IMG/VR virus record: IMGVR_UViG_3300034683_000192
Coordinates: 124,001 to 188,000 of that record
Direction: 5' to 3' (one strand)
Source of the DNA: a virus
DNA: 64,000 bases
Shown: positions 2,867-58,999 of the stretch, piece after piece
Numbering within the stretch: the first letter of the stretch is position 1
How the letters are laid out: each line of letters begins with the position of its first letter
Program-made: the position numbers and the translations under genes
The notes under the pieces: generated by a model
Databases searched by the model: none
Told to the model about the DNA's origin: nothing
The model's input: only the letters and a program-made list of their open reading frames with translations

Positions 2867-4852
2867 TTACCGAATCCAATCGTAGGAGAGACCGTAGTTC
2901 CGGTCAAACGCACCCACAACTCTGGAGACGGTATACATCGTCGGATCCGCGAATCTCTTCTTGTGTTCTTCGTACGAGAATTGTCCAGAGTACGTCCTGT
3001 TATGGATGATATCTGGAGTATTCCCGAAAATCACATGATCCAGATCTTCCACTATCGGAATATCCCACCGATCCTTATCGGTGATCATGTGTGCTTTCAA
3101 AATCATCTCGAGATGGAGAATGTTCGTCTTTGGAACTTTCGACCAGACAAGGTCGCAGAAGTGATCGAGCGCTTGTCCGAATGATTTGTATTTCGACAAT
3201 CCATTGCTCTCGAGGAATTTGATAACCGAGAGAACATAGGCATACGTCGAGTCGTTGACGATCGCTGCACGAAAGATCGGTATGGTCGGGATATCCTGCA
3301 TAGGAATCCACAGAACATTTTCATCGACCACGAGATCGATGTACTTTTCCTTCATGTACAGAAGAAACTCCATCGTCAGAAATGGCTTTTGACCATCGAC
3401 AATGAGAGGAAATTCTGACATGATACCAGATGGATCTTTCACCAGAATCGAGGATATGCTACTGAATCGATCTTCTGGAAGTGCAGCATCTTCTGTCAAT
3501 TCCAAAAGGTCGGACTGTGTTCCGTAGAAGTCATCGAAAAGAATCCCTACGGACCACGGCTCTTTGACATTTTTGAATTCAGGAGTCAGATGAATACCAT
3601 CTTCTTTTCGAACCAGAAAGTCTGTCGCTTGTGTCGGAATCACGTACAGTTGTGACAGAGTCTTGATCAGGTGTTTTGTTGAGAGAATCATCTGGGATAC
3701 CTGGGACACCACTTCCGATGCCGAGTTAATCCCGATGTTAATCCCGTTACTGTTCTTGAATTCGAATCCCTGAAGGAACTTGGGATACTCTTCAGAGATC
3801 CCTCGAACCGACAAGTTACGAAGAAGAAGTCCACCGCAGACCATGCATACGCCATCAGTATGACGACAACCACCAGGAGTGATCATGTTTACTTCATGGT
3901 CGATGAAGGACTTGATGTTTCTGCTCGTGAGAGGAATGATGCTACCATCATCCAGAATGATGAATTTTCCGACATAGTTCTTTGCGAAGCTTGCGCGAAT
4001 AGTGCGCCTGATCGTCTTGTGTGCTCCACAATCCGGCATATATGCCCGGAGAAGTTCCGCTGTGATAAGGTGCATCTTTCTGCCCCAATACTGAGACGTC
4101 TGGATGGCCTTATGGTTCATGATGGCAGCTTTTCTACCTGCCTGAGATTCGATAGCGAGATCGACTATGTTCTGCATCCCGGAAACGACAGAACCTTTCA
4201 CGGGACGAGGAATGACTTTGTCGTTGACTTCAGTACGAAGCCCAAGAGCAATGAGCACTTGCTGCAATTGGTTAGCATTCAGAATGTCTGCTTGTTGCCA
4301 ATGCAAAAGTGCTTCATTTTTGAGTAGACCTCTTGTACCAAGAGCTTTGCACAACTTTTCTTTGGCATCAGAGATCGTTTGTTCAATGACATTTGTTCCG
4401 TACTTGTTATCCAGATCAACCGAGATGATGGGTTTGATTACTGGATCTTGCACGATCTCAACGAGATCGACGATGGATATCCCGCAGTGATGTTCTGCAA
4501 GTTCCATCGTACCGAAGTCATCAAGATAGTTGATGCAATGCCAGAGTCTCCAAGTAAATTCATCGAGACCTCGTTCGTCGAGATCCAAATATATGTCGCC
4601 GTATACTTCAGACAAGATGGACTGGCAAACGGATTTGCTGAACACCTTGAATTCGTGCATATGCCTTTTCAGTACAGGCATGCCCATGCTGCGGTAGATT
4701 TCCCAAATAGGGAGATTGACGAGTACTTGCTGAATAAGGTGTTCACTTACACCATCGGCAAATTCTACGTCCACCCATCCTTGTGGATGTCGGTGTTTGG
4801 AGATGATTTCCTTTGCAAATGCATACGACATGTCTTCTTGTCTGATTAACAT
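2867..4852 (-). CDS. phage RNA polymerase beta' subunit, C-terminal half
   Basis: 661 residues covering the C-terminal half of an rpoC-type subunit. Cys275 (PDCGAHKT) with Cys329, Cys336 and Cys339 (CRHTDGVCMVC, spacing C-x6-C-x2-C) form the second beta' zinc site. Upstream, the stretch around residues 220-262 (ESQAGRKAAI...QYWGRKM) aligns with the trigger-loop/bridge region, and residues after the zinc site (GINSASEVVSQVSQ) match the conserved AAQSIGEPGTQ helix. ATG at 4852 is preferred: GGGAGG lies seven bases before it, and it overlaps the beta stop codon by seven bases, implying coupled translation. In phiKZ-like phages such halves assemble into the non-virion polymerase that reads middle/late genes; assignment to that enzyme is from gene order. 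Confidence 0.93.
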   Translation of the reverse strand: MLIRQEDMSYAFAKEIISKHRHPQGWVDVEFADGVSEHLIQQVLVNLPIWEIYRSMGMPVLKRHMHEFKVFSKSVCQSILSEVYGDIYLDLDERGLDEFTWRLWHCINYLDDFGTMELAEHHCGISIVDLVEIVQDPVIKPIISVDLDNKYGTNVIEQTISDAKEKLCKALGTRGLLKNEALLHWQQADILNANQLQQVLIALGLRTEVNDKVIPRPVKGSVVSGMQNIVDLAIESQAGRKAAIMNHKAIQTSQYWGRKMHLITAELLRAYMPDCGAHKTIRRTIRASFAKNYVGKFIILDDGSIIPLTSRNIKSFIDHEVNMITPGGCRHTDGVCMVCGGLLLRNLSVRGISEEYPKFLQGFEFKNSNGINIGINSASEVVSQVSQMILSTKHLIKTLSQLYVIPTQATDFLVRKEDGIHLTPEFKNVKEPWSVGILFDDFYGTQSDLLELTEDAALPEDRFSSISSILVKDPSGIMSEFPLIVDGQKPFLTMEFLLYMKEKYIDLVVDENVLWIPMQDIPTIPIFRAAIVNDSTYAYVLSVIKFLESNGLSKYKSFGQALDHFCDLVWSKVPKTNILHLEMILKAHMITDKDRWDIPIVEDLDHVIFGNTPDIIHNRTYSGQFSYEEHKKRFADPTMYTVSRVVGAFDRNYGLSYDWIR

Positions 4853-6990
4853 GCGCGTGCCTCCCAAGGGTCATCTCTTCGTACCATAGCTTCATCTCCA
4901 CCAATCTCGATACCACAAACCGTGAGAAGTTGATTCGTCACAGCGAGCATCGTATTGCTTTTCGTGAGTTGATCCTCATCAAAGTCGAGCCAATCGAGAC
5001 GAGTAGGTCTATCCATAGTCAACAACTGCTCGTTGAGAGCGTTGGTTGCTTCCGGAGAGTTGGCATACATCGTCAAGATCCGATAAGACAGCTTACCGAT
5101 GGCCATCGTCAGAAGACGATATTCATCTTCACCCAGTCTGATCGGAACCATACCAATCGGAGACTGAGATTTTGCTTTCTTATGCTTTGCTCTTACTGGT
5201 ACTCCGAGCTGGTTGACGTACGTCATACCGCACGATCTAGCGTGCGGAATTTTGCAGAGGATGTAGATGTACTTTCGCGCTATCCACATCGGTCTGATCG
5301 TACGAACTCTCCGAATTACGTTACCATCACTGTCAAGCTGATTGAACTCGACAGGTGTAGGCTTCACGTCATACTTCTTAACCATGTACTCCACCCACTC
5401 AGGGGTGATGGTCTCGAGAGTCGGAGGAATGACCAGAATCGGGTATCCCCGTTTACGGATTTCCCGCATGTACTGTTTGATACGCTTTGGCGTATTCACT
5501 GTCCGTGCAACGAGATCTGCGTATACCTCGTTAACATCAGCGAAGAACCCTAAGAGATCCTCAAACTGCTGTTCATCGTCATACTGTCGCTCTTCCCATC
5601 TGCGCATGACACACCCTGCAACGAAATTGATGAACTGCTCATAGAGCTGTCCCAAGTTCATGCGGTTAACCACCGCTTCGGGTGCAATGATGATATCTGC
5701 TACAGTCCCGTAATCATCTACGGGCATGTGCTCTTTCTTTCTGATTTCACTGATAACGCCTTTACCACCTTCACGTCCTGATGACTTGTTCCCAAGTGAT
5801 ACGACGTTGTCGTACTTGTAGGTGATAACGAGACGTGTGAACTGAATTGGTTCTCCCTTGAATGAGAACTTCGGAACAGTGCGAATTTCTTTGACTCGCT
5901 CTCTGTTAGCAGCGAGAATCAGTTTCGCACGTTCGACGAGTGATGAAAATTCAGGAGAAGGGGATCTGCTTTTCTTCTTGCACTCGTTTTCGTATACCTG
6001 AACGACCGTGCGATGAAATGCAAGTCCGTTGTCGATATACTTTTCAAGCTGAGCGAAAATGTTCTGGGGTGTCTTCACCTGACGATTGAAGTTTCGGTAG
6101 ACATCAATGTCGATGACAGTTGCACCCGGTTCTGCAAATCGAATATCGTCATGACTGAACTGCGGTTCGCAGAGCGCCATATCGGTCATGTCGCTGATCA
6201 TTGAAGATTCGTTGACTGTACGGAATCCACAGATGATTCCATCGTCACGAACTCGCTCGTGGATATCCGGCATGAACTTGTAATCATCACCAGTCGAATA
6301 AAGGTTCAGAGGAACCATATTCTTTTCGATGTCGATCACGAGAGTTCTGATCCCAAGAGTCCCCAGTCTCTTTGCAAGTTCATCAGAAATGCAGAATGCA
6401 TCTTCGACTGTTTCTTTTGCCGACATGTAGCACACGTTGGCATTGACGCCGAGACAATACTTGGAGTTTTGAACCGCAGGTGAATTGGTAAGTGTGATTC
6501 CTTTCGGAATACCGACACCAGCTCGTATGAAGTTGTCATTTACCCGATTTGCATAGCCGAAGCCATCCGCGCATTTCGTGTATCTGGAAACTTCTTTGTA
6601 GTGGACTTGTCCATCTTCGTCACCCACATAAACGACGACCATCGATGGATTGAACAGAATCGGATCAGCTCCGATCTGTGTGCGATATTTCGGAATGACT
6701 GCTACTGTGGTAGCTGCCTGTTCCATACGAGTGTCGTTGAATGTGTAATCTGCGAAATGTCTTTCGTATCCAGTACAAATTGCAGGTACCTCTGCACCAG
6801 CAGGAATAGGCGCCTGGACGATGTTACTGGAATACATCCCCATACGCTGAGACGTGATGAATTGTACGAACGGGACCAAGTTCGTTTTGGTCCCGAGTAA
6901 TCGGATGTCAGTCGAGAGATCTCGCATGAGTGGATATCTCTCAACAAATTCATCCCAATACTCTGGGATCGGAAACTCGGAGTTCCGCAT
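4846..6990 (-). CDS. phage RNA polymerase beta subunit, C-terminal half
   Basis: 714 residues. They begin near the rifampicin region equivalent (SQRMGMYSS... then PAICTGYE, matching the bacterial MQRQAVP...GTGME stretch). They contain GNKSSGREGGKGVIS at 400-414 and RMNLGQ at 443-448, the two best conserved C-terminal beta motifs, so the catalytic core and clamp side are present. The N-terminal half of beta is not in this window. ATG at 6990 has AGGAG upstream; a longer frame to 7059 would run through the promoter-like site at 7045-7055 and is rejected. Its stop overlaps the start of the beta' C-half, the same adjacency as gp71-73/gp74 in phiKZ. Confidence 0.93.
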   Translation of the reverse strand: MRNSEFPIPEYWDEFVERYPLMRDLSTDIRLLGTKTNLVPFVQFITSQRMGMYSSNIVQAPIPAGAEVPAICTGYERHFADYTFNDTRMEQAATTVAVIPKYRTQIGADPILFNPSMVVVYVGDEDGQVHYKEVSRYTKCADGFGYANRVNDNFIRAGVGIPKGITLTNSPAVQNSKYCLGVNANVCYMSAKETVEDAFCISDELAKRLGTLGIRTLVIDIEKNMVPLNLYSTGDDYKFMPDIHERVRDDGIICGFRTVNESSMISDMTDMALCEPQFSHDDIRFAEPGATVIDIDVYRNFNRQVKTPQNIFAQLEKYIDNGLAFHRTVVQVYENECKKKSRSPSPEFSSLVERAKLILAANRERVKEIRTVPKFSFKGEPIQFTRLVITYKYDNVVSLGNKSSGREGGKGVISEIRKKEHMPVDDYGTVADIIIAPEAVVNRMNLGQLYEQFINFVAGCVMRRWEERQYDDEQQFEDLLGFFADVNEVYADLVARTVNTPKRIKQYMREIRKRGYPILVIPPTLETITPEWVEYMVKKYDVKPTPVEFNQLDSDGNVIRRVRTIRPMWIARKYIYILCKIPHARSCGMTYVNQLGVPVRAKHKKAKSQSPIGMVPIRLGEDEYRLLTMAIGKLSYRILTMYANSPEATNALNEQLLTMDRPTRLDWLDFDEDQLTKSNTMLAVTNQLLTVCGIEIGGDEAMVRRDDPWEARAC

Positions 6991-7044
6991 TTTTAAACAT
7001 CTCCTGAGTTTGCAGATTATTGAATGAGGCAAGGATGCAAACAA

Positions 7045-7055
7045 GTAATATATAC
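7045..7055 (-). promoter_or_regulatory. early-type promoter, GTATATATTAC
   Basis: On the minus strand the site reads GGGTATATATTACTTG, 55 bases upstream of the beta C-half start. It contains TATATTAC, the phiKZ early-promoter element. It lies in the divergent spacer with the plus-strand gene at 7088, and because the core is nearly palindromic it could serve both directions. Confidence 0.65.
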
Positions 7056-7087
7056 CCACACCTCTTTTGGGAATCTAGGAGTTCGTT

Positions 7088-8099: not shown

Positions 8100-9224
8100 T
8101 TACTCTCCACGATTCTTATTCATGATTGATTCTTGCGCCAAAGCTCTGACTGCATCAGCCTGAGGACATCCAAGCTGATCCATACACGACGCAATGATCG
8201 TTAGAGCTTGACTTACCTGCTCCCATGCAGAGCAATGTCTGTTGGCTGCTCCGCCTCCTCCAGTATTTGGGGAGTTATTAGGAGTAGATCCTCGACCATT
8301 TTCTACATCTGTAGAAGGAGATCCGTATGTGCTATCTCCTGCTCCTGTAGAATAAGACTCCGCTTGTACATTTTTAGCGACGATGGTATCTGCTTCCATG
8401 GCACCCTTAATGCCTACACATTGTGCCTCGATGATCGCAGTACCATCAGCCTTCAAGAGAAGATTGTTTGCTTTCCAGACAGTAGTACCATCACCAGTTG
8501 TATTACTGGTAGTGATCACTGGAATATCCAGCACTAGCTGTCTGCCAGCTTTCATCAAGATATCTTCAGGTGCGATCTGTATGATACTTTTCTGTGCTAG
8601 ATCTATTATCGATCCATCTCGGTTTCTCATCCGTACTCGAGGAAGTTCCGAGTCTATGAGTATTTCATTGTTAGAGTCGTCACATACGACGAATCTATTA
8701 TTCTCCGGATCAAGTGCCAGGAAGTACGCATATTCTTCTCCATTAGCCTTGCTTGTACGAAGAAGAACACGTTTATGATGTTTTGTATCCAATTCAATGC
8801 AATATGTATTTTCGTCAGTCAGTGCAGCAATTGGTCCTGGGGCTCCACTGATACGGAAATTGAGTCGTTCAGGTCCACGAAGATTATCATCGCGACCTAT
8901 CGCGTCCCAGTAGTAATCATCCGCATCGGCATACTTCCATACCCAGACTTGTTCGTTCTTCCTGATATCTGGAGGATACGCTCTATTGGGATTCCCGATA
9001 TAGGTAGCCTCTACTGTATTGGTAGTAGTGGCACTTCCCTTATATCCCGTGAGTTCGTTCCCTATTTCTCGTGGATCGTCTACCGACCGGACATCTCCAG
9101 TGACAAAAGGAAGCATTTCCTTAAGATACACTTTGATGACACGAGAATCGGATTCTTTATCTTCTAACACAATACCCACAAATTGCGAGAATTGATTTCC
9201 ATTCGTTGAAGAATAATCAGGCAT
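8100..9224 (-). CDS. putative baseplate central spike (gp5/VgrG-like)
   Basis: 374 residues. The N-terminal part (FVGIVLEDKESD...RVIKVYLKEMLP) looks like the OB-fold domain that opens gp5, gpV and VgrG spike proteins. The central to C-terminal part (IIDLAQKSIIQIAP...ILMKAGRQLVLD...ANNLLLKADGTAII) has the short repeating strand pattern of a trimeric beta-helix spike. A Gly/Asn/Ser linker (SPNTGGGG) leads to a small Cys-containing helical C-terminus (HCSAWEQVSQ...IIASCMDQLGCPQ). ATG at 9224 has AAGGAG upstream; a longer frame to 9272 lacks one. Role: membrane-piercing tip of the contractile tail. Assignment rests on pattern, not a diagnostic motif. Confidence 0.6.
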   Translation of the reverse strand: MPDYSSTNGNQFSQFVGIVLEDKESDSRVIKVYLKEMLPFVTGDVRSVDDPREIGNELTGYKGSATTTNTVEATYIGNPNRAYPPDIRKNEQVWVWKYADADDYYWDAIGRDDNLRGPERLNFRISGAPGPIAALTDENTYCIELDTKHHKRVLLRTSKANGEEYAYFLALDPENNRFVVCDDSNNEILIDSELPRVRMRNRDGSIIDLAQKSIIQIAPEDILMKAGRQLVLDIPVITTSNTTGDGTTVWKANNLLLKADGTAIIEAQCVGIKGAMEADTIVAKNVQAESYSTGAGDSTYGSPSTDVENGRGSTPNNSPNTGGGGAANRHCSAWEQVSQALTIIASCMDQLGCPQADAVRALAQESIMNKNRGE

Positions 9225-9284
9225 GATGGTATCTCCTTCAAAGAATGATCGAACACTGAAAAATAAATACACACAATAAAGAAA

Positions 9285-9328: not shown

Positions 9329-10570
9329 CTAAAATGCGGCTCTGCTGCGATAACCACGACGATAATCGCGATCGTCGTAATCTTCGCGAGAATCGCGTGC
9401 CCACGATTCGCTCGATCTGCTGTAACTCCTACGACGATCGTAGTCCCGATCATCTCTGTAATCACGTCGATCGCGGTAGTCTCTACGACCACGGTCACGA
9501 TCTCGGTAATCTCGATCATCACGGTCATCGCGGTAGTCCCGCCGTTCCCACGATGCTTCTCGCCGGGGTTCTCTTCGATCATCGCGGTAATCGCGATCAC
9601 GCTCACGTGGATCGCGGTCGCGATCTCTGTCACGATCATCTAGAGGATCCCTCAGCGATTCTCTCGGAGGAGCAACCTTTCTGGTAGCGACAGGCTTTTC
9701 CATCTTGTCCTTGACGGACTTTCCGAGGCTGATCGAAGATGACCATTGACACATCTTGTGATAGATGTCGATCCTCGAAAGATGCGGTTCGATGAGTTTC
9801 AGATCACCGGAAATATCCAGATCTCGATCACTCACCGCATCCTCGGTGGTAATTTCGACTGCGACTGCCAGAGCAGACCACGCTCTGAACCACACGTCCA
9901 GATAGGTACGCAGTTGCGGGCAGACGAGTTCAGTTGTCGTAGCCTGATAGACCTCAGGTACCGGCTTGTCCGTATCGAACAGAGCACGTACGAGATCCTT
10001 CAGTACTGCCCAGGTCTTCTTGCGGACCTTGGTGGACGGAATCGCTTTCTGATAATCCTCGGAAGGATCTTCGATCCCAAGGATCAGTTTGGTAGTCTTG
10101 GTGGTGGGATTGTAGTACAGCGAGCAGAACCCGTCGTTGCACTTGTCGAGGATGTAATCGAGTTCGACGATCATCTTCGCATCAGCTCGACCAGCGACCG
10201 CTTTCGTGTACTTCACGAGATCCGGATACGGGCACGGCTCTTCGGTGCTTGCGAACTTGAGGATGGTCTTGATGACTGACCCGAGATTTTCGCTCAGGAT
10301 GACGCTGAGCACACGATAGAACCAGTTTCTGTCCGCAGACGCAGTAACGCCTTCCGCGAACGGGTTGATGATCACTGCATCCGGATGATCCGGATTCACC
10401 GTATAGGTGTAGAGAATGCCTGTAGCATCTCCGGCGATCTGTACCTGGATGGGGTCACTCTGTGATTGGACCCAATGGACTTTTCCGGTGGCGTCGACGA
10501 CGAGGTGACCGCCAAGTTCAAGAATGCCAGTGATGAAGGACTGGACATCCTTGTGGGTAAATTCAGCCAT
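9329..10570 (-). CDS. unknown protein with Arg-Asp-rich C-terminal tail, 413 aa
   Basis: Residues 1-300 form an ordinary-looking globular domain I do not recognise (Cys-containing; FRVLSVILSE-type helices). Residues 307-410 are an extreme low-complexity tail of RD, RDRD, RDYRDDR and SYSRSS units, mixing positive and negative charge, like the RD domains of the eukaryotic proteins NELF-E and U1-70K. Such mixed-charge tails bind RNA or drive condensation in those systems; here that is inference only. The gene is GC-richer than its neighbours. GGAG precedes the ATG. It is last in a four-gene operon and is followed by a strong hairpin. Confidence 0.85.
   Translation of the reverse strand: MAEFTHKDVQSFITGILELGGHLVVDATGKVHWVQSQSDPIQVQIAGDATGILYTYTVNPDHPDAVIINPFAEGVTASADRNWFYRVLSVILSENLGSVIKTILKFASTEEPCPYPDLVKYTKAVAGRADAKMIVELDYILDKCNDGFCSLYYNPTTKTTKLILGIEDPSEDYQKAIPSTKVRKKTWAVLKDLVRALFDTDKPVPEVYQATTTELVCPQLRTYLDVWFRAWSALAVAVEITTEDAVSDRDLDISGDLKLIEPHLSRIDIYHKMCQWSSSISLGKSVKDKMEKPVATRKVAPPRESLRDPLDDRDRDRDRDPRERDRDYRDDRREPRREASWERRDYRDDRDDRDYRDRDRGRRDYRDRRDYRDDRDYDRRRSYSRSSESWARDSREDYDDRDYRRGYRSRAAF
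9341..9652 (-). repeat. DNA encoding the RD-repeat tail
   Basis: Imperfect repetition of short units such as GATCGCGAT and CGATCACGG, translating as Arg-Asp dipeptides with interspersed Tyr, Ser and Trp. The repeat is degenerate at DNA level but very regular at protein level, which argues for selection on the protein rather than simple slippage. Confidence 0.8.
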
Positions 10571-14970: not shown

Positions 14971-15065
14971 GACCACTCCTGTCTTATCTGTCGATCCTAC
15001 ATGGACCGTGTCGCGCTCATGTCATATTCAAAGCATGTCGGAATTTACATGATCACTCCAAGTAG

Positions 15066-15076
15066 GTAATATATAC
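15066..15076 (-). promoter_or_regulatory. early-type promoter, GTATATATTAC
   Basis: On the minus strand AAGGTATATATTACCTAC, 96 bases upstream of the start at 14970 and 2 bases below the stop codon of the next gene. Exact match to the core shared with 7045 and 32230. Confidence 0.65.
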
Positions 15077-15077
15077 C

Positions 15078-15623
15078 TTACTCATTGTTGGGTTCGGTAC
15101 GTATTCTCTTTTTCAACTCACGAAGAGTATCCTCTTTCGACAGTCCGAGTTCTTTTTCAAGATACTCGAAATTTTCCATGATCTGAGAAATGAATTTTTC
15201 GCGAATGGTTTGGAGAAGGTTCGTCGACGACGTACGTTCTCCCAAAAATTCAGTTGAAAGTTCATTAGGATCACACCTACGTCTGGTATGCATGACTTTA
15301 GCTATGGCAGCACCGACTTCATGAACCGCAGAAATCGTCTCAACTCCTTTGGAGATATCGTAATAAAAATTCAATGATACACTTATTCCATTACGGATTC
15401 GGTGCAGATCGTCGAGAGATAGTTTTTCCAATTCAGCCAATAACCCATCGATGGACAACAACGCAAGATCGCGATATTTGGTTATCCCATCTCCGAATTT
15501 GAACGCACACACTTCATCCAGTAACTCAACGCAGATCAATTGGTTTAGGACTACTGGGTCCAGTATTTTCCATTCTTGCGTTGTGCTTACCAACACACTT
15601 GGTCGACTCATTTGATCTCTCAT
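15078..15623 (-). CDS. unknown protein with tail-fibre-type GDGxTKYxDL motif, 181 aa
   Basis: Residues around 50-62 read FKFGDGITKYRDL, the signature loop of the short N-terminal domain found in many phage tail fibres, yet the rest is a helical domain (SLDDLHRIRNGISVSLNFYY) ending in a Lys/Glu-rich coiled-coil-like tail. The 107-aa neighbour has the same motif and layout, so the two are probably paralogues. ATG at 15623 follows AGGAG. It could be a small fibre-network or head decoration component, but no function is established. Confidence 0.8.
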   Translation of the reverse strand: MRDQMSRPSVLVSTTQEWKILDPVVLNQLICVELLDEVCAFKFGDGITKYRDLALLSIDGLLAELEKLSLDDLHRIRNGISVSLNFYYDISKGVETISAVHEVGAAIAKVMHTRRRCDPNELSTEFLGERTSSTNLLQTIREKFISQIMENFEYLEKELGLSKEDTLRELKKRIRTEPNNE

Positions 15624-15641
15624 GACCAATCTCCTGTACAG

Positions 15642-15965
15642 CTATTTCGTGCGTGATTTGCCGTTGCAACAAGACGATGAGGTAACTTCTATGACCGCAT
15701 CAAGAACTCGTGCGTAATTGGGCAGCGTCGTTCTCGGTACTGCCATCACAAGACTACATTTTACGATATCTGCATCGACAGGAGATAGAGTCTTAAGATA
15801 CTCGACCATATCGCCACGTGTCTTAACTTCTAAGTCCAGATATTTTGTCTTTCCATCTCCAACGCAGAAAAATACTTCGTCCTCTCCGACAACTATCGTC
15901 GGTTCTCCATTCGAAGGTACATACTCTCCCTCTATTGCTATCACATCTTTGACTTGAAGTTTCAT
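15642..15965 (-). CDS. unknown protein with GDGxTKYxDL motif, 107 aa
   Basis: Contains VGDGKTKYLDL in mid-protein, aligned with the same motif in the 181-aa neighbour, followed by a matching helix (MVEYLKTLSPVDADIVK against GLLAELEKLSLDDLHRIR). The C-terminus has a Cys pair (SSCCNGK). GGAGG precedes the ATG. It is an independent small gene rather than part of a fibre. Confidence 0.8.
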   Translation of the reverse strand: MKLQVKDVIAIEGEYVPSNGEPTIVVGEDEVFFCVGDGKTKYLDLEVKTRGDMVEYLKTLSPVDADIVKCSLVMAVPRTTLPNYARVLDAVIEVTSSSCCNGKSRTK

Positions 15966-15977
15966 TGGTATTCCTCC

Positions 15978-16592
15978 TTACCATTTGTTGATTCGTTTAT
16001 ACCTACGATTATGCATCGATTTCAATCGATTGATCCGTTTCTCTTCTTCGAGAGGATCATACGCAGGCTCTTCACATTTCGGACAGCGAAAGACCTGCGC
16101 TTGGTCTAGCGTCGAAACAATAGAGCTTCCTCTGAGTTTGGATATGGACATACCCATGTCAGAATTTCCAATAACCAGGACTCCACCATTTGGGAATTGG
16201 TACAGCTCATTACACTCGTCGGTTTCATGATCGCTAGATTTGTACTGATTTTCCATTTCTTTGGCAACTCGATCAAACTCATCTTCAGTGAGAATAACGA
16301 CTTCGTCGCAGATGTCGTGTACTATCGCAGTGTGCATGAATTTGATCATAAGCATCGTGTTGATGATCCCAGACTTCCCACATTGTCGGATTACCGTAAC
16401 ATCGTCCGTGTTCATGGGATCTGCGACTACACGACCATTTTCATCGATTACAGAAATGACCTGAGTATTTTCAGAATCTACTGAAACCGATTTGAGATAT
16501 TTACTCTCGTACGTTCCGTTGTAGGCTTCCTCCAAACTGACCGGTCCGAGAATTTTCTGCGCATCTACGGTCGTAAATATGATTCTGACCAT
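15978..16592 (-). CDS. unknown protein, 204 aa
   Basis: Not recognised. The N-terminal part is strand-rich. A single CPKC knuckle near the C-terminus (FRCPKCEEPAYDP) lacks a second Cys pair close by, so an isolated zinc ribbon is doubtful, though earlier Cys residues could complete a site. It ends in a strongly basic tail (RLKSMHNRRYKRINKW) that could bind nucleic acid. GGAG precedes the ATG. It lies in the run of small genes upstream of the large unknown operon. Confidence 0.8.
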   Translation of the reverse strand: MVRIIFTTVDAQKILGPVSLEEAYNGTYESKYLKSVSVDSENTQVISVIDENGRVVADPMNTDDVTVIRQCGKSGIINTMLMIKFMHTAIVHDICDEVVILTEDEFDRVAKEMENQYKSSDHETDECNELYQFPNGGVLVIGNSDMGMSISKLRGSSIVSTLDQAQVFRCPKCEEPAYDPLEEEKRINRLKSMHNRRYKRINKW

Positions 16593-16605
16593 TGGTATAT
16601 CTCCA

Positions 16606-16881
16606 TCATTTGGTGATCAGTGAAAATGCAACAACCCCAGTCATTATTCCAAGCATGCATGAACCTATCCCAGACACAACACGTGCTTCATGCATCTCGA
16701 TTGTTTCTTTCTTAAGCCGTCGGGTTATCATCGACAATACCCCAGCAGCGAACGTACCGAGTGCTATTCCGGTAAGAATCGTCACTGGCTGAAAATGATC
16801 TTCCACCAACAATCCCAGAGTCAGCATCACTGCATACGGAATACAAAGGAGTGATGCCGAATATACGTTTATTGCATTCAT
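16606..16881 (-). CDS. small membrane protein, 91 aa
   Basis: Three hydrophobic segments at about residues 8-26, 34-52 and 68-88, with a basic, charged loop between the second and third (ITRRLKKETIEMHE). No family recognised. AAGGAG precedes the ATG. It is adjacent to another small multi-span protein, so the two may act together in the host inner membrane, for example in lysis timing or superinfection exclusion; this is a guess from topology. Confidence 0.75.
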   Translation of the reverse strand: MNAINVYSASLLCIPYAVMLTLGLLVEDHFQPVTILTGIALGTFAAGVLSMITRRLKKETIEMHEARVVSGIGSCMLGIMTGVVAFSLITK

Positions 16882-16909
16882 ATCGGCTCCTTCGGGTGTC
16901 TAGCGTATC

Positions 16910-17266
16910 TTAGATTTCGTAAAATACAGAGATAATCGCCAGACAGACAAAGGCGATCGTATTCATGAGATCCACTGGATCACTTCGTTCAAAGTCATCG
17001 TTCACGTATTCAATTACGGAAACAATTCCCGTAGCCATTGCAAATATGTAAAGGAGTGTTGTTGACGCATTGACGATATATTTACCACTCATCATACCCG
17101 ATCCGACAATACACAGGTATCCGAGTACACCACTTACCCAGAATCTGGTATAATTGGAACTGTCTTTGTGCGTGGTCTGGTACCACAATTCCACGATGGC
17201 ACCAATGATGAAAATTACAATACCCATGGTGTGAATGGGCTCGATAAGAAAAGTCACGTCAATCAT
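16910..17266 (-). CDS. small membrane protein, 118 aa
   Basis: Four likely transmembrane helices, at about residues 10-29, 42-60, 65-85 and 98-116, with short polar loops. No recognised family. AGGAG precedes the ATG. It starts the two-gene membrane unit and lies 55 bases below the hairpin that ends the SSB-like gene, with an AT-rich promoter-like stretch between. Confidence 0.75.
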   Translation of the reverse strand: MIDVTFLIEPIHTMGIVIFIIGAIVELWYQTTHKDSSNYTRFWVSGVLGYLCIVGSGMMSGKYIVNASTTLLYIFAMATGIVSVIEYVNDDFERSDPVDLMNTIAFVCLAIISVFYEI

Positions 17267-25674: not shown

Positions 25675-27198
25675 TTACATTTCGAACCTAACGTGTTTTG
25701 GCGTATCCATACCACACGAAAGGAATGAGTTGATGTGAACTGTCGCCTGGTTTGTAGGCATAACGAGTCCACCAACTGCCAAATCGGATTTCGACAGAAT
25801 AGTCATCCTTGGATGAAGATTCTGAAGAAATGGCACCATCCCCATTTCTTTGATGAAGAGGATGTACATTTCGTCACCATCAAAGTCAGCATTCGGGGCT
25901 TTGCAGATACGCGCAGAAATGGAGATTGTTTCATCCGCCATATCTGTTTTGACTTTGGTCATGTAAAGGAGCTGAATGGCTCCTAGGACCAGAGTCGGAT
26001 TTCGTCCGACCAAAAGAGGTAGTCCCTTATAAGGACACTCTTCGATCAGTTTCATGATGATGCGGTGAATATCTTCGTCGAACACTACAAGTCCTCGCAT
26101 GTACTTTGCGAGTGCCTCGTTGAGTGTATGTGGTCGTTTAACTTTGTATCCTGGGGATTCTTCCACAGGAATGAAAGATCGATTCATGAGAACATTAAGG
26201 ATCTCTCCTTTAAGTGCTCCCATTGCAATTTTCATAGGGATATAGATTTCATCCCCTTCATGTGGACTGACGATTGGTACAATGACTGAACGTGCAGAGA
26301 AGTGGACTCTAGCGCCCATGTTGTGGCGACGAGCCTGTGCAAATTTGTCACCGAATTTCTTTTCGATGATGTTTTCAGTATAAGCGATGAGACTTTCGTA
26401 GACTTTCCACAACTGTCTGTCGACGTACGTTTTGTCAGTCAGACATCTCTTCGATTCGTATGCGAGTGTGGACAAGTCAGATGCTGCTGACATCATGTGG
26501 CCTGCAGCGTTGTCAATAGCTTTCATCTTGCACTCTTTCGCGATTGGCGTAAGTACAGGATGAAGTGAAGGAAATTTGCGTATCCACATCAAGTGTTTGT
26601 ATTGCTCATACATGTCTTTGACGTGGCATAAATCTTTCTTGCTCTTCGTCAACTTGTATGTGTTGAAGAAGAAGTCCATGATTTCGTCTGTATGTTTCTC
26701 GAAATAGCGAAATCCTTGAGCACGGATGTGTGACCGCACACCGTGAGGAAGTTCTTCTGTAGGATCAAGGATTGCTTGGAGAAGAGGAATTTTTCGTACT
26801 TTCGATTTGGGTTTTTCGGACTTTACTTTGCCGAGCCATCTCGAAAGAACTGCGTAAAATACTGGATGCATGATCGATGGGAGATGATCAGGGAAGATGA
26901 GCCAGTTAACGCAGCCGAGTTTGCTCGTAAACTCTGTTGAGACAGTAGTTTTGCAGATCGGACAAACGTATCCTGCGTAGAAGTTCCCCCGATACTCCTT
27001 ACACTCACAAGTAGCTACGAAACCAAGCTCAGGCTCAATATCGTAGAAGAGCTGTGAGATTCTTTCTTGAGTAAGCTTCTTTCCTGTAAGATCAGAATCG
27101 TTAAGAGCTTTTGCTCCTATCGATTCAGAATGAAGTTTCTCAAAATCTGTTAGCCGTACCCTATTTCGTTTGAGATACGGACTTTTCTTTCCACTCAC
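25675..27198 (-). CDS. phage RNA polymerase beta' subunit, N-terminal half
   Basis: 507 residues. First beta' zinc site at Cys64, Cys66, Cys79 and Cys82 (CECKEYRG...GYVCPICK). RVHFSARSVI corresponds to the bacterial RVDYSGRSVI strand, RNPTLVLGAIQ to RAPTLHRLGIQ, and the catalytic loop NADFDGD is at 436-442, with the three Asp that hold the active-site Mg. It ends soon after (TNQATVHINSF), exactly where the C-half at 4852 takes up the chain, so beta' is split 3' of the catalytic loop. GTG start at 27198 with AGGAGG nine bases upstream. Equivalent in position to gp55 of phiKZ. Confidence 0.95.
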   Translation of the reverse strand: MSGKKSPYLKRNRVRLTDFEKLHSESIGAKALNDSDLTGKKLTQERISQLFYDIEPELGFVATCECKEYRGNFYAGYVCPICKTTVSTEFTSKLGCVNWLIFPDHLPSIMHPVFYAVLSRWLGKVKSEKPKSKVRKIPLLQAILDPTEELPHGVRSHIRAQGFRYFEKHTDEIMDFFFNTYKLTKSKKDLCHVKDMYEQYKHLMWIRKFPSLHPVLTPIAKECKMKAIDNAAGHMMSAASDLSTLAYESKRCLTDKTYVDRQLWKVYESLIAYTENIIEKKFGDKFAQARRHNMGARVHFSARSVIVPIVSPHEGDEIYIPMKIAMGALKGEILNVLMNRSFIPVEESPGYKVKRPHTLNEALAKYMRGLVVFDEDIHRIIMKLIEECPYKGLPLLVGRNPTLVLGAIQLLYMTKVKTDMADETISISARICKAPNADFDGDEMYILFIKEMGMVPFLQNLHPRMTILSKSDLAVGGLVMPTNQATVHINSFLSCGMDTPKHVRFEM

Positions 27199-27248: not shown

Positions 27249-27282
27249 AAGGGGAGGGACCCTTTGAAGGACCCCTCCCCTT
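27249..27282 (-). terminator. hairpin between putative shell gene and beta' N-half
   Basis: 10-bp stem AAGGGGAGGG / CCCTCCCCTT with an internally paired loop. It separates the abundant-looking gene at 28966 from the polymerase gene; partial read-through could set the ratio between them. Confidence 0.75.
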
Positions 27283-27316
27283 CGAACCGTTTCCTTAAGG
27301 CGTTTTCGTGTGTGGA

Positions 27317-28966
27317 CTATCTGTGACGGATGGTGCGACCACCCCAGATGCCAGAGCCCTGGCGAATGCTCTGCCCACGACGAGTGTGGATGGACGTACG
27401 ACCCATGATCGCAGAGATGTTGCGACCGCGGTCGAAGTAGGCGCCGATGCTGATGGGAGCATTGGTGTTGTAGTCGGTACGAACGCGCAGCGAGCTGCCG
27501 GCGGCCTTCATGATGGCTTCGAGCGCATCTTCACGCAGCGGGCACATGTAGGTCATGTACAGCGGCTGGACATTCTTGTAGCCGAGGTCACGAATGGAGT
27601 CGATCCGGCGCAGCGCATCGTTGTCGTAGGTGAGGAAGTCCCCGAGCAGACGACGATCGCTGGTAGCCTGAATGGCATCGAAGTAGTCGATTTCGCGGGA
27701 ATCGACCATGCGGCCTTCCTTGTTCACCAGAGTGGTGAGCATGCCGATCGGCTTGTCGAACATGGTATCCGGACCGTCAGTGATGTGATTGCTTCCGAAG
27801 AATTCAGCGAAGTCTTCGAGAATCGGGCCCTGCATCTTTTCGTTGGCCATGGCATACATGCCGGGCAGGGTCACGCGACCGGGCTGGATGTCGACCACGA
27901 CGATCGGTTCGAACATGCGGTCACGGACGAAGCGATTGAGCTGATCGATGTTGGTAAGTTCTTCGGGACGACCATCTTCATCGAACCACAGATTGCCGAG
28001 GTTCGGGCTGTTCGGGCCGAAGGATTGGAACGGAGACAGCCAGCCCTTATGGGTGATGGCGTAGTCCAGGAAGTTGGCCAGCAGAACGGGGAACATCCGA
28101 GAATGACGGATGTAGGAGGCCCATTCGGTGAGGTGCAGGATCGGCTGGTACATGAGGTCGCGGCCTTCGTAGACTTCATAGAAGTCCGTGAAACCGCCCA
28201 TGGCGCCGAGTTCGATGTATTCGTCGCGACGATCACGATCATCACGATTACGATCACGGTCGCGAACATCGCGATCACGATCGTCCGTCAGCATGTTCAT
28301 GACGATGCCGACGTCGATGCGGCCGAGCACCTTGTGCGGGGTCAGCGCGCCGATGACGTCGTGTACACGGTTGGGATCGGTGACGATGTCGTAGCGGCAT
28401 TCCTTCACCATCTTGTAGGTGATGTCGCTGTAGAGACCGCCGGTGAGTGCTTCCTTCACCGTGTCGAACCACTGGGTCGGCTTTTCGTAGTCGCCACGCA
28501 GAACGACGTAGACGTCCAGCAGCGATTCGGCATTGCCGATTTCCAGAGCGATGCGGAATTCGTCATGCACGCGGGAGACGTAGTCTTCGGTACCGCCGCG
28601 ATAAGCATCGGGGCGCATGTGTTCTTCGAAGATCAGCGCGACGGCGATGCCGTCCTTGACGAACAGTTCGGCGCTGGCGGCGGGCATACGCACGCTCGTG
28701 ATGCCGAGTTCCGGAGCCTTGGTGAAGGATTCCTTCAGCTGCGTCAGGAAGGTCGTACCTTCCGGCGACAGTGCCTGGTGCTGAGCCTTGCTGCGCACGT
28801 AGTGGATGAGCGATGCACCGCTCGAACCAGACGAGGAGGAAGCTGCACGTTCGGCGCGAGTGTCGTCCTGAACGGGCGACACGTTGTCATGAACGGATCC
28901 CACAGGGGATGCGATCGGATGACCCTGGGTCTTGTCATTGTCATCGATGGCGAATTCAACGGGCAT
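27317..28966 (-). CDS. putative phage-nucleus shell protein (chimallin/ChmA candidate), 549 aa
   Basis: Sequence alone does not identify the family to me; the proposal rests on context. (1) It lies immediately upstream of the beta' N-half gene, the same neighbour as ChmA (gp54) has in phiKZ (gp55). (2) It has its own early-type promoter and hairpin. (3) It is one of the GC-richest genes here (one sampled line is 57% GC against 35% in a nearby gene), suggesting codon adaptation for high expression. Low-complexity Ser/Gly near residues 41-52, a run of Arg-Asp repeats at 228-249 inside the folded part, and a basic, Arg/Gly-rich C-terminus. AAGGAG precedes the ATG. Alternative: another abundant early or structural protein. 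Confidence 0.5.
   Translation of the reverse strand: MPVEFAIDDNDKTQGHPIASPVGSVHDNVSPVQDDTRAERAASSSSGSSGASLIHYVRSKAQHQALSPEGTTFLTQLKESFTKAPELGITSVRMPAASAELFVKDGIAVALIFEEHMRPDAYRGGTEDYVSRVHDEFRIALEIGNAESLLDVYVVLRGDYEKPTQWFDTVKEALTGGLYSDITYKMVKECRYDIVTDPNRVHDVIGALTPHKVLGRIDVGIVMNMLTDDRDRDVRDRDRNRDDRDRRDEYIELGAMGGFTDFYEVYEGRDLMYQPILHLTEWASYIRHSRMFPVLLANFLDYAITHKGWLSPFQSFGPNSPNLGNLWFDEDGRPEELTNIDQLNRFVRDRMFEPIVVVDIQPGRVTLPGMYAMANEKMQGPILEDFAEFFGSNHITDGPDTMFDKPIGMLTTLVNKEGRMVDSREIDYFDAIQATSDRRLLGDFLTYDNDALRRIDSIRDLGYKNVQPLYMTYMCPLREDALEAIMKAAGSSLRVRTDYNTNAPISIGAYFDRGRNISAIMGRTSIHTRRGQSIRQGSGIWGGRTIRHR
28220..28285 (-). repeat. RD-dipeptide insert in the putative shell gene
   Basis: CGATCACGA-type repetition encoding about 22 residues of mainly Arg and Asp, the same composition as the tail of the gene at 9329. 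Confidence 0.75.
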
Positions 28967-29061
28967 CGGAGTCTCCTTGATGCAGTTGGTTGGTTTACGT
29001 TCCTGGCCAGAACTTATTAGTAGTTTTACCTAGATCGTACCAATTACAATCTAAGCAGGGT

Positions 29062-29082
29062 TCACAATAGTGATATATATGC
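29062..29082 (-). promoter_or_regulatory. early-type promoter with TCACnATAGTGA dyad (divergent)
   Basis: On the minus strand GCATATATATCACTATTGTGA; the core starts 104 bases upstream of 28966. The TCAC...GTGA arms next to the core also occur at 45935-45956. It lies in the 211-base divergent spacer, so it could also affect the plus gene at 29178. Nothing else was seen in that spacer. Confidence 0.6.
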
Positions 29083-29177
29083 ACATTTCCCTTGGGGATT
29101 TGAGCACATGATATGCAACCCGTGTACGAAATGACATGGTCGCTTGACCCGCCTCATTATGTAGGAGGAAGGTATAC

Positions 29178-30341
29178 ATGCTACAAGACCTCGCGCACCA
29201 CTTCCGTGTGGCATCACCTAAGGTCCTGCCCAAATGGGAGCAGTACGTGGATTTTTTGAAACTTCAGAAGCGCATACTCAAAACACGCTTCTTGAATCTT
29301 GACGGATTTGAGTCGAGAGGATTCTTCATACTGAAGCAGATCCTTAAGACTCTCGATCCAGATATAGAGTATCTGTCATTACAGTCAAATGACTTTGCAA
29401 GATATCTCAACTATTTCAAAGAAATTCCATCGAATGCTAACGATATATTCGATCCTGCACGATCTGGTAAAGCCTATCGAAAAGCATTCTACAAGAAAGG
29501 ATTATTCGCACCGAACGAATACATTTGTCCGGTATCCGATGTTGACCACATCAAAACTCTTCCTCTCGAAGGATCGTGGGAAGAGTGGAGTAAGGTCAAA
29601 CCTATGCAAATATGGTATCACGATACTGACGAGTATACTCTCGACATATTTCAAGGACAAGTAGTTACGAAATACACACATCCGAATTTCTCGATGATCT
29701 GTCTCGATACTACTGCTCTTCTTTTCAAATACTTCAAATATCTGACGATGGATGTACCCCAAGAAGAAGGAACAAAGAACTTCCATACATTCATCTATAA
29801 ACACGTCTATCCATTTATCATGGATGATCTACTCGAAATATGGTTATTCAACAGAATAACTCATATAGCAAATCTCGTTACTGAAGGACCTTCCACTGCC
29901 AACTTAGTCCATATAGCACCATCATCCGATCGAGCATTCGGGTACGTGGGAAGCAGGTATGGAGAAGCAATGGAATCTCTTTACAGTGCGATGGAAGATG
30001 TCAAAAATGGTACAATTAACGTGAATTCAATCTTCTGTGCAAAATTGCTCCCGAGTGGATCAATAGTGGATAGAATGAATTACGCCAATGAGTATCTCGA
30101 TATTCCGAATACTGTACAATACAAACATGCGATTCTTTTGAGGGACATGCCGATCATTGATCTCATGGTAACCATGCACTCGTGGAGACCTGACGTCACC
30201 ATCTATCAATCTCTCAGAAGAGATCTCAATATTTACCTGAGAAGAATGAAAATGAATCGTATATGGCAGAGAATCTATGATTCGTCCGTACGGACGAAAG
30301 TAGAAGATTGGATTGAAAATTCGCAAAAGAAAATCGAGTAA
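29178..30341 (+). CDS. unknown protein, 387 aa
   Basis: Not recognised. AT-rich gene, in contrast to the divergent GC-rich neighbour. Helical and aromatic (FLKLQKRILKTRF; MICLDTTALLFKYFKYL), basic C-terminal end (RRMKMNRIWQRIYDS...ENSQKKIE). AGGAGG lies nine bases before the ATG; a hairpin follows the stop. Monocistronic. A phage-nucleus-associated or virion role are both possible; nothing in the sequence decides. Confidence 0.8.
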   Translation: MLQDLAHHFRVASPKVLPKWEQYVDFLKLQKRILKTRFLNLDGFESRGFFILKQILKTLDPDIEYLSLQSNDFARYLNYFKEIPSNANDIFDPARSGKAYRKAFYKKGLFAPNEYICPVSDVDHIKTLPLEGSWEEWSKVKPMQIWYHDTDEYTLDIFQGQVVTKYTHPNFSMICLDTTALLFKYFKYLTMDVPQEEGTKNFHTFIYKHVYPFIMDDLLEIWLFNRITHIANLVTEGPSTANLVHIAPSSDRAFGYVGSRYGEAMESLYSAMEDVKNGTINVNSIFCAKLLPSGSIVDRMNYANEYLDIPNTVQYKHAILLRDMPIIDLMVTMHSWRPDVTIYQSLRRDLNIYLRRMKMNRIWQRIYDSSVRTKVEDWIENSQKKIE

Positions 30342-45320: not shown

Positions 45321-45902
45321 TTAGATATACTTAGTGAAGATCTCCTTCGGATCGAACCCGGTAACTTCCACCAGATTCATCTGTTCCAGTTCAGAGATCT
45401 GTCCGTATACGGACTCCATATTACCCTTCGAGTAGCTTCCGGTGAAGTACACGTTGGCTACACCAGAAGCGCATAGCATCTTCAGACAGATGGGGCATGG
45501 CATCGTTGTGCAGTACACATCTGCACCTGCCAGACTGAATCCGAGTCTACTGGAGTTGGCGATGATGTTCTGTTCAGCGTGCATCGCTTTGCAGATGTCG
45601 AGACTCTTACCGGACGGAATGTTGTTGATCGTCCGGAGACAAGTTTCAGGAGTGCAGTGCTCATGATCACGAAGCACTCCATTGTATCCTTCGGCGATGA
45701 TGAGGCCATCCTTTACTGCGATCGCACCTACTTTCCGGCGGGTGCAGGTGGACCGCATGCTCACCACATGCGCGATCAGCATGAACCAGTCGAGAGAAGA
45801 AATCCTCTCAGGCTGGAGCTTCTGCGCGTATGGTTTTGCGAGTCCACGCAAACCACCGGGAATCATCTGACCGCCAGGATTTCCGTCGCGTTTGATGGGC
45901 AT
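45321..45902 (-). CDS. deoxycytidylate (dCMP) deaminase
   Basis: 193 residues. Zinc-dependent deaminase motifs: MHAEQNIIAN (HAE, with the catalytic Glu) and TTMPCPICLKM (PCxxC). An N-terminal STCTRRKVGAIAV strand belongs to the substrate pocket, and the C-terminal region VANVYFTGSYSKG is typical of the dCMP family. Converts dCMP to dUMP for dTTP supply during phage replication. Early-type promoter 42 bases upstream and AAGGAG before the ATG. CMP/dCMP group is certain; dCMP preferred by phage context. Confidence 0.9.
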   Translation of the reverse strand: MPIKRDGNPGGQMIPGGLRGLAKPYAQKLQPERISSLDWFMLIAHVVSMRSTCTRRKVGAIAVKDGLIIAEGYNGVLRDHEHCTPETCLRTINNIPSGKSLDICKAMHAEQNIIANSSRLGFSLAGADVYCTTMPCPICLKMLCASGVANVYFTGSYSKGNMESVYGQISELEQMNLVEVTGFDPKEIFTKYI

Positions 45903-45934: not shown

Positions 45935-45956
45935 ATCACTATAGTGATATATATCC
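45935..45956 (-). promoter_or_regulatory. early-type promoter with perfect ATCACTATAGTGAT dyad (divergent)
   Basis: On the minus strand GGATATATATCACTATAG, core 42 bases upstream of 45902. The overlapping 14-base palindrome at 45935-45948 resembles the TCACnATAGTGA arms of 29062-29073. The spacer also serves the plus gene at 46020. Confidence 0.65.
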
Positions 45957-46019
45957 ACGACAATGTTCATTGTCATAGTCTCGTCATGCTATGCATTTCG
46001 CACACAAAGGAGATTTATC

Positions 46020-56809: not shown

Positions 56810-58999
56810 TTAGACGGAGGATTCACGAATGGCGATGCCCACGTTCTTCACGTAGTACCGTTCATTGGACGAACGAGAGATCAGCGTGAGCGAATCGTTC
56901 AGGTCCACGCAGATTTCGTAGTTCTTATCCTGGTCGATCCGGAACAGCTTGGTGTTGCGCTGGTCACCGGACGGTTCGATGGTGAGTTCTTCGTCAGTTT
57001 CGCGATCAACGATCACCATGTTGACGAGACTCACGGCTTCGACGCTGATGACCCCATTGAGATCCTGCAGCGTGGTCGAAATCCAGTTGGACTTCTTGTC
57101 CTGGTTTTCGTACTGGGTCACTACGTTGATCGGGGCTCGGGTTTCTTCCTTGGTCGGAACTTCCGCTTCTTCCACGACGATGTCGTCTGCTTCCAGCTCG
57201 ATCGGATCGCTGTCACTTTCCGGATCGTCCGCAGGTTCCTGCATCATCGCATCCACGACTGCCGGGGCAGGGTCAGCGAACGACTGGTCATCGACGATGT
57301 CTTGAACGAATGCGTCATCCAGCGGCAGACTGGTATCCATCTGCACAGGTTCGGACTGTTCCGAGTCCTGAATGGGGGAAGGCTCGGAAGCTTCCTGATC
57401 CTTGCAGGTGCAGTTGTCGCACGGAGTTTCGCAGTCGCAGACGGAACCTTCGTCTTCGGTGGAAATCGTCACCTGATCCGGATCAGTGTAGACGATTGAA
57501 ATGGACTGATCCCCGTTGTCCACGACTTCGAGCCCGGTGGGGACATATTCGTCCTGATAGGGTTCATCGGTCGATTCCGTCGGAGTGACATCAGCAGCAT
57601 GCTTCACGACCGTTTCGGTGATCGTCGAAAGCGGTACTTCGATCGTGGGCTGTTCTTCGACCGCTTCGGTTTGTGCGGTCGTAACTTCTTCCGACGCGAT
57701 GACCTGCGGACGATCTTCAGTCGGAAGGGTCTGCACCTGTTCGGTGATGTTCGACAGCTCCTGCGCAGGAACTTCGGGTTCCTTTTCGGCAGGAATGGGA
57801 GCTTCTTTGGCGGGTGCGGGTTTCTTCACTTCCTTCTGCTTCTTCGGCTTGGATTCCTTATTGACCAGATGGTCAGGAATCAGCTCTTCTGCCGGAATGT
57901 CGGCGACTTCATCTGCCGACAACTGACGATTTGTCGACTTGGCGAAACGGCAGATGTTCGTGATGGTCGTCTGACCGACTTCCCCACGTTCCTGATCCTT
58001 CTTGTAGATCATCTTCAGCAGGTCACCCGGGAGAATGGCCTTGCCGAAAATGGTCCGTGTGAATTGATTCAGGTACCTGGCGAAGAATTCGGACATGGCG
58101 GTCACGTCGTCGTTCGACAGGATCCAGCATTCGTAGAAACGCTGCACATCGATGGAGATGGGCGCATTCTTGCCGTAGTTGTTGTAGAGCAGCCTTGCCT
58201 GGCACAGGAATTCGCCGGGGCGCGCCTGGTGGAAGCCGAACTGCATCCAGACGAATTGATTCCCGTTCATGTGCAGGTCATTGGCATCATTGGCGATCTG
58301 GGTCATGAACACGGAGAAGTTCGCGCAATCGTACACGACATCCACGTATTCGTCACCGATCCCCGATTTTTCGAGGGTATGCTTCGAATCGTCCGCGCCG
58401 TATACGTTGGCGTACACGTCACGAGCTTCGTCGCGAGTTACGTCGTGGAATTGTTCCACGTACATCGCCTCCGTGCAGTTGAAGGTGAACAGTTTCTTGT
58501 AGAGGGCATCGAACGCATTCTTGAGCGCAGGATGCACCGCTATCAGAGAATCCAGCCACGAAGAGTCGAGACCGCGCTTGCCAGCGACATGCCCCTTAAC
58601 CAGGGACAGCTTTGCGGTACCGAACTGTTGTTCTTTCTTGCAGGGTTCGGTCGACTCGATGCGGTAGACGGCGAATCTGGCCGAGCCCATGCGGTGGTAA
58701 CCCACGAGCACCATGCAGCCGGGCCAGATATCCACGGAAGCGTGGAGTGAGTTGAAATTTCGGAACGGAAGAATCTTCGCGTGCGACGGATGGCCACCAG
58801 GTCCGGTTACCACGATGGCGAATCCGCTGTTGTCACGTTGACCACCCATCTCGAAGAGACCGCCACGCCCACCGGTATTGATCTCGATTTCCTGCGGAAA
58901 CTTCGGATGCTTTTCCGTCAGAAATCGAAAGGAGTGGAAGTAGCCGGAGTGCAGAGCCTCTCTCCATTTCTTGGGTGCCCCATTCTTACGATCGTACAT
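56810..58999 (-). CDS. unknown GC-rich protein, 729 aa, with disordered acidic linker and Cys knuckle
   Basis: Not recognised. Residues 1-350 form a GC-rich folded domain with Gly/His-rich loops (GGQRDNSGFAIVV; QARPGEFLCQARLL). Residues about 395-620 form a long low-complexity linker rich in Glu, Pro, Thr and Ala (KPKKQKEVKKPAPAKE; ESDSDPIELEADD) containing CDCETPCDNCTC, a cluster of five Cys in 12 residues like a metal-binding knuckle. The C-terminal part (about 620-729) is a second folded domain with a basic centre. GGGAGG precedes the ATG; early-type promoter 55 bases upstream. High expression inferred from GC bias; role unknown. Confidence 0.8.
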   Translation of the reverse strand: MYDRKNGAPKKWREALHSGYFHSFRFLTEKHPKFPQEIEINTGGRGGLFEMGGQRDNSGFAIVVTGPGGHPSHAKILPFRNFNSLHASVDIWPGCMVLVGYHRMGSARFAVYRIESTEPCKKEQQFGTAKLSLVKGHVAGKRGLDSSWLDSLIAVHPALKNAFDALYKKLFTFNCTEAMYVEQFHDVTRDEARDVYANVYGADDSKHTLEKSGIGDEYVDVVYDCANFSVFMTQIANDANDLHMNGNQFVWMQFGFHQARPGEFLCQARLLYNNYGKNAPISIDVQRFYECWILSNDDVTAMSEFFARYLNQFTRTIFGKAILPGDLLKMIYKKDQERGEVGQTTITNICRFAKSTNRQLSADEVADIPAEELIPDHLVNKESKPKKQKEVKKPAPAKEAPIPAEKEPEVPAQELSNITEQVQTLPTEDRPQVIASEEVTTAQTEAVEEQPTIEVPLSTITETVVKHAADVTPTESTDEPYQDEYVPTGLEVVDNGDQSISIVYTDPDQVTISTEDEGSVCDCETPCDNCTCKDQEASEPSPIQDSEQSEPVQMDTSLPLDDAFVQDIVDDQSFADPAPAVVDAMMQEPADDPESDSDPIELEADDIVVEEAEVPTKEETRAPINVVTQYENQDKKSNWISTTLQDLNGVISVEAVSLVNMVIVDRETDEELTIEPSGDQRNTKLFRIDQDKNYEICVDLNDSLTLISRSSNERYYVKNVGIAIRESSV

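Follow-up and report, generated by a model that had tools for sequence, protein, structure and literature searches.

The window, a 64,000-nt stretch that forms part of a 199,880-bp IMG/VR record, carries on its minus strand an ORF for a 549-aa protein that is almost certainly a very divergent ChmA (chimallin), judging by its predicted fold and by sequence profiles (Table 1). A sequence-only reading of this DNA had made the same proposal from the gene order, an early-type promoter and a strong GC and codon bias, and had described an Arg-Asp (RD) insert and an Arg/Gly-rich C-terminus. The ORF is real, with an ATG start codon and a good ribosome-binding site close upstream, and the gene order is as claimed: chmA lies 118 nt upstream of the gene for the N-half of RNAP beta' (beta'N), which is the phiKZ gp54-gp55 arrangement. 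The order gp52-family gene (opposite strand), chmA, beta'N is common to the window, phiKZ, PCH45, Asesino and pVp-JHP1101. Split multisubunit RNAP genes and a PicA homologue co-encoded with ChmA, both Chimalliviridae traits, are also present. With phmmer, 42 ORFs of the genome had homologues in five chimalliviruses; the Chimalliviridae core comprises 68-72 genes, and the record may be incomplete. A baseplate assembly gene (8100-9272(-), phrog_3216) separates the gp70-like gene from the one for RNAP beta, a spot that in phiKZ and PCH45 lacks such a gene; it also follows the gp70-like gene in two related genomes described below, L009 and L012.

Table 1. Features of the locus and related ChmA genes. 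Positions are those of the window unless a contig is named.
Feature	Position	Strand	Basis or remark
chmA, putative divergent chimallin, 549 aa	27317..28966	-	Foldseek to PDB and profile-profile comparison
Ribosome-binding site of chmA, AAGGAGA	28972..28978	-	Sequence
AT-rich promoter-like element GTGCATATATATCACTA, 102 nt upstream of chmA	29068..29084	-	One other near-identical copy in 200 kb
Terminator-like hairpin after chmA, 15 bp stem	27249..27282	-	Sequence; strong
RD tract DDRDRDVRDRDRNRDDRDRRDE, aa 228-249, 19/22 R/D	28220..28285	-	In loop between predicted strands 219-226 and 250-267, GNAT-like domain
RNAP beta' N-half (phiKZ gp55 family)	25675..27198	-	phrog_2987 E 3e-73; best tblastn Serratia phage PCH45, 29%
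phiKZ gp52-family gene	29178..30341	+	blastp E 1e-7 to PCH45 gene, 6e-5 to phiKZ gp52
RNAP beta subunit part	4846..7059	-	phrog_3295 E 6e-131
Further RNAP subunit piece, phiKZ gp74 homologue	2867..4867	-	phrog_3015 (described as RNA polymerase beta subunit) E 5e-81; phmmer to phiKZ 66626-68659 gene E 8e-18
PicA-like protein (phiKZ gp69 / PhiPA3 gp63 family), 512 aa	10598..12136	-	hhalign of trio vs PicA family Prob 92, E 6e-7, full-length collinear; shuffles at least 0.097
phiKZ gp70 / PhiPA3 gp64 family protein, 413 aa, long RD(Y) tail	9329..10570	-	hhalign of window/L009/L012 trio, tails removed, vs gp70 family Prob 93, E 3e-7; shuffles at least 0.12
RD-rich tail of gp70-like protein, about aa 311-410	9341..9640	-	Sequence
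Clade ChmAs beside beta'N (IMG/VR contigs up to 307 kb)	L245 8315-9931; L246 7947-9764; L247 1778-3361; L253 7006-8613; L009 8269-9885; L012 6236-7843		

The composition of chmA is unusual for this genome. Its GC content is 0.59 and its GC3 0.74, CGT and CGC make up 45 of its 48 Arg codons, and the claimed codon bias is indeed the strongest among the 27 genes checked. This bias probably accounts for a 570-aa antisense ORF (27308-29020(+)) that overlaps chmA. Second in codon bias (GC3 0.69) is 56810-58999(-), whose 729-aa product has no PHROG match and may be a structural protein made in large amounts, perhaps the major capsid protein. The promoter-like element upstream of chmA has a single further copy in 200 kb (GTGGATATATATCACTA, 45942-45958(-)), 40 nt upstream of a 193-aa ORF (45321-45902(-)). 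Because the element is so rare and its one extra copy also lies just upstream of an ORF, a dedicated promoter-like element for chmA is plausible, and this much of the promoter claim stands; "early" is a conjectural label for it. Expression of the 193-aa ORF may coincide with that of chmA, which itself is probably strongly expressed from its own transcription unit. The Arg/Gly-rich C-terminus is present in the product, with an enrichment that is modest.

Used by itself, the 549-aa protein found no relative in PHROGs, Pfam, PDB phmmer, phage tblastn or IMG/VR and GTDB peptide-pattern scans, and a canonical ChmA HMM gave no direct match to it. The curated models PF25677, a Phikzvirus-level model, and phrog_4795 both match phiKZ gp54 and both miss the 549-aa protein. 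Homologues were reached through the neighbouring beta'N gene in IMG/VR contigs. A beta'N search led to contig L009 (43% identity), where the upstream ORF encodes a 538-aa homologue of the window protein (E 7e-28). The L012 protein forms a bridge, matching both the window protein (blastp E 3e-16) and the canonical ChmA L037 (E 2e-7), in small databases. PF25677 did not match the L009 and L012 ChmAs either, and a Pfam scan of the ChmAs from the window, L009 and L012 returned no family. Profile-profile comparison of this three-sequence alignment with about 65 canonical ChmAs gave E 9e-9, and adding four members to make a seven-member clade gave E 2e-18 (Prob 96-99 over both comparisons), with no control in the trio test (unrelated families, column shuffles, reversal) scoring below E 0.23. 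The 66-sequence "core" set includes L075, which is no ChmA but probably a DNA polymerase; the outcome was the same without L075 and L074. The HMM comparison with ChmA families that the sequence-only reading had proposed is thus positive only at the profile-profile level, through intermediates. An alignment of seven canonical ChmAs, searched against the genome, found nothing, the window protein included; the alignment is too diverse for this purpose, so the genome may hold a second ChmA.

Structure prediction, the other proposed check, was positive against the chimallin cryo-EM structures. A first AlphaFold (AF2) model, built from the three clade sequences (window, L009, L012) without canonical ChmAs and without templates, had low confidence (pTM 0.49, mean pLDDT 49), and ranks 1-9 of its Foldseek search against the PDB were chimallins (Goslar, 201phi2-1, PhiPA3; E 3e-11 to 4e-8, prob 1.00), with rank 10 already at E 0.35. 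A second model, from a 42-sequence alignment that includes 39 canonical ChmAs and so is not independent of ChmA, reached pTM 0.71 and matched 7sqq at a TM of about 0.6 and E 1e-14. For the two-domain fold (alpha/beta NTD and GNAT-like CTD), full-length Foldseek matches were chimallins only, and weak GNAT matches came next at E of at least 0.07. About 50 aa at each end of the window ChmA are present but low-confidence in the models, where the protomer-linking segments are unresolved. Strong codon bias is typical of major structural proteins too, but it is extremely improbable that the ORF encodes a structural protein other than chimallin, and a capsid or sheath identity is rejected, as far as modelling goes, on the predicted fold, since every significant match of either model is a chimallin, no competing fold appears, and the slot beside beta'N is filled by a ChmA-size protein in nearly every related locus. 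Together, the fold, synteny, codon bias and profile-profile homology support the identification as a divergent ChmA.

On the beta'N tree, the window joins L009, L012, L245, L246, L247 and L253 in a fully supported group (SH-aLRT 100), which a long branch separates from every other chimallivirus included (midpoint root only) and whose ChmAs measure 527-605 aa. By this placement from sequence, the window belongs to a deep chimallivirus clade that had not been placed before and whose ChmAs are small. A further contig, L244, has beta'N and a gp70 homologue, and no upstream ORF there matched ChmA. Compared with the chimallins of 201phi2-1 (gp105, 7sqq), Goslar (7sqt), PhiPA3 (gp53, 8fne) and phiKZ (gp54, PF25677, phrog_4795), the window protein has the same full-length two-domain fold (TM about 0.6), the same location upstream of beta'N, strong expression signals and collinear motifs (an RxDvxI strand, a gfvDl strand and GxxxDxRxIDy near aa 418-428). 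It differs from them in sequence (about 11-13% identity), in length (549 aa versus about 610-690), in being missed by the curated models and in having an RD tract in an inter-strand loop. The 201phi2-1 chimallin has been shown to form tetramers and a closed sheet. Going by its fold and gene context, the window ChmA would likewise assemble into tetramers and a closed sheet round the replicating phage DNA, and would be the principal shell protein of the phage nucleus in a deeply divergent chimallivirus.

From ChmA, the PicA-like and gp70/gp64-like proteins and the split RNAP genes, we infer that this phage builds a nucleus. A search for PhuZ tubulin gave no PF00091 match in the window genome or two relatives (G000, G001, G002), whereas phiKZ, 201phi2-1 and PCH45 do match. 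PhuZ is dispensable, only 66% of the family have it (PMC10299810), and Asesino builds its nucleus without it (PMC11724907). The protein encoded at 9329-10570 has the homologous N-terminal domain of the gp70 family and the place after PicA, adjoining the PicA homologue as in phiKZ; unlike phiKZ gp70 and PhiPA3 gp64, it bears a long RD tail. In PhiPA3, gp63 (PicA) and gp64 were both found at the nuclear shell (PMC10643120, PMC11087766). One review lists Imp3 with the proteins identified in that shell-protein study (PMC12908238), and another states that PicA/Imp1 function depends on Imp3 (PMC13282480); by elimination, PhiPA3 gp64 / phiKZ gp70 is probably the import factor Imp3 (PMC12908238, PMC10643120). 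A role for the 9329 protein as a virion or tail protein, suggested by the baseplate gene downstream, was dropped after the profile comparison with gp70.

The RD insert in ChmA lies exactly where it had been described. It aligns to a variable loop near residues 275-286 of 201phi2-1 ChmA and is predicted to be a loop extension on the GNAT-like domain. Within the 199,880-bp record only two genes have RD tracts, ChmA and the gp70-like gene, the kinship that had been noted from sequence. The accompanying idea that the insert binds a partner at the shell gains support from comparison: the 9329 protein has a shell-localised homologue, and R/D or R/E tracts co-occur in ChmA and this protein family across genomes. 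The ChmAs of Serratia phage PCH45 and the L077/L078 group, which fall outside the window's clade on the tree, also have R/D- or R/E-rich tracts and are accompanied by RD tails on gp70-family proteins; in these ChmAs the tract occupies not the loop used in the window but, for the most part, the N-terminal segment (loop 2 in L055).

In a scan of ten genomes, the number of proteins with a tract ranged from 0 to 3 per genome; these were mainly ChmA and the gp70-family protein, and sometimes PicA and one 620-720-aa protein. Such a protein (618-720 aa) with an RD-rich segment is encoded by PCH45 (MN334766.1 39342-41426, with a weak phrog_15010 match), the L055 genome (111256-113418) and pVp-JHP1101 (15060-16916), phages that also have tracts on their ChmA and gp70 homologues. 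The PicA homologues of pVp-JHP1101 (200122-201690) and the L078 genome (74772-76352) have an R/D tract near the C-terminus. To measure co-occurrence, we scored 22-aa windows for richness in R plus D/E, by one fixed rule, in every available representative chimallivirus genome with both genes. Among the first 52 genomes, gp70 carried a tract in seven, and the same seven scored highest in ChmA (7/7 vs 0/45) at cut-offs picked after the data had been seen; the rank correlation between the two proteins, which needs no cut-off, was 0.80. For 19 newly found genomes the prediction was written before the gp70 tails were read. The tail was above the cut-off in 10 of 11 ChmA-positive genomes, the eleventh scoring 13 against a cut-off of 15, and in 0 of 8 ChmA-negative ones (P 1e-4, or 0.001 without near-copies, neither phylogeny-corrected). 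Over 75 genomes, 17 had tracts in both proteins, one in ChmA only, none in gp70 only and 57 in neither, counts that overstate independence since the largest RD-bearing clade has many close relatives. The pattern needs 6-7 changes on the beta'N tree, at least four of them on well-supported branches, and independent pairs all run in the same direction or are tied, being too few for sign-test significance. Within the window's clade of seven, the window alone has a tract in both proteins, and L009 is weakly Arg-rich in both.

Pairing of the two tracts is our leading hypothesis for the RD tract; the contact itself we infer from the co-occurrence. We hypothesize, tentatively, that chimalliviruses repeatedly evolve matching Arg/acid tracts on ChmA and the gp70/gp64-family protein as a physical docking or co-condensation code that holds the factor at the shell, at whichever exposed ChmA segment a lineage uses. 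In the window, the ChmA tract and the gp70-like tail would form a matched mixed-charge pair that keeps this factor, which is probably associated with import, at the shell. In eukaryotes, R/D domains of mixed charge concentrate proteins in nuclear speckles, and their patterning determines the destination (PMC9324279). The likeness lies in the alternating R/D composition and the accumulation at a nuclear body; it is an analogy of composition only, without homology and in a different compartment.

A reading that we take seriously but rather doubt is that the RD tracts arose neutrally, as disordered loops and tails gained low-complexity sequence through repeat slippage in lineages prone to it, and share no function. 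Disordered tails are free to drift, the DNA of the ChmA tract contains a degenerate 6/27-nt tandem repeat of CGTGAT type, and the kinship and sign-test limits given above would suit such a process. However, all six Arg codons are used in the gp70-like tail, which indicates that the amino acids are kept and not a DNA repeat. Tracts are also rare in the genomes that bear them (1-3 of about 80-300 ORFs each) and fall repeatedly on ChmA and the gp70-family protein, sometimes PicA, their position within ChmA varies, and the concordance held in the pre-stated test. It is unlikely that RNA, such as emerging mRNA, is what each of the two tracts (on ChmA and on the gp70-like protein) binds, in place of the other tract. 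Arg-rich disordered segments are often RNA-binding, and ChmC, whose gene lies nearby in known chimalliviruses, binds RNA and associates with the shell (PMC12908238), but the window ChmA tract is charge-balanced and largely alternating, and in a study of eukaryotic R-MCD peptides a blocky pattern led to phase separation, with RNA affinity, and the alternating one did not (PMC9324279).

A set of large metagenomic phages that annotation would miss can now be grouped with the nucleus-forming phages, where it occupies a long branch of its own. Their predicted shell proteins are about 80 residues smaller than those known, which bears on the origin of the phage nucleus and on the minimal shell. The pores of the shell are too small for most folded proteins. 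If the pairing of tracts on ChmA and the gp70/gp64-family protein is functional, it would offer a testable sequence handle on how import factors anchor to the shell.
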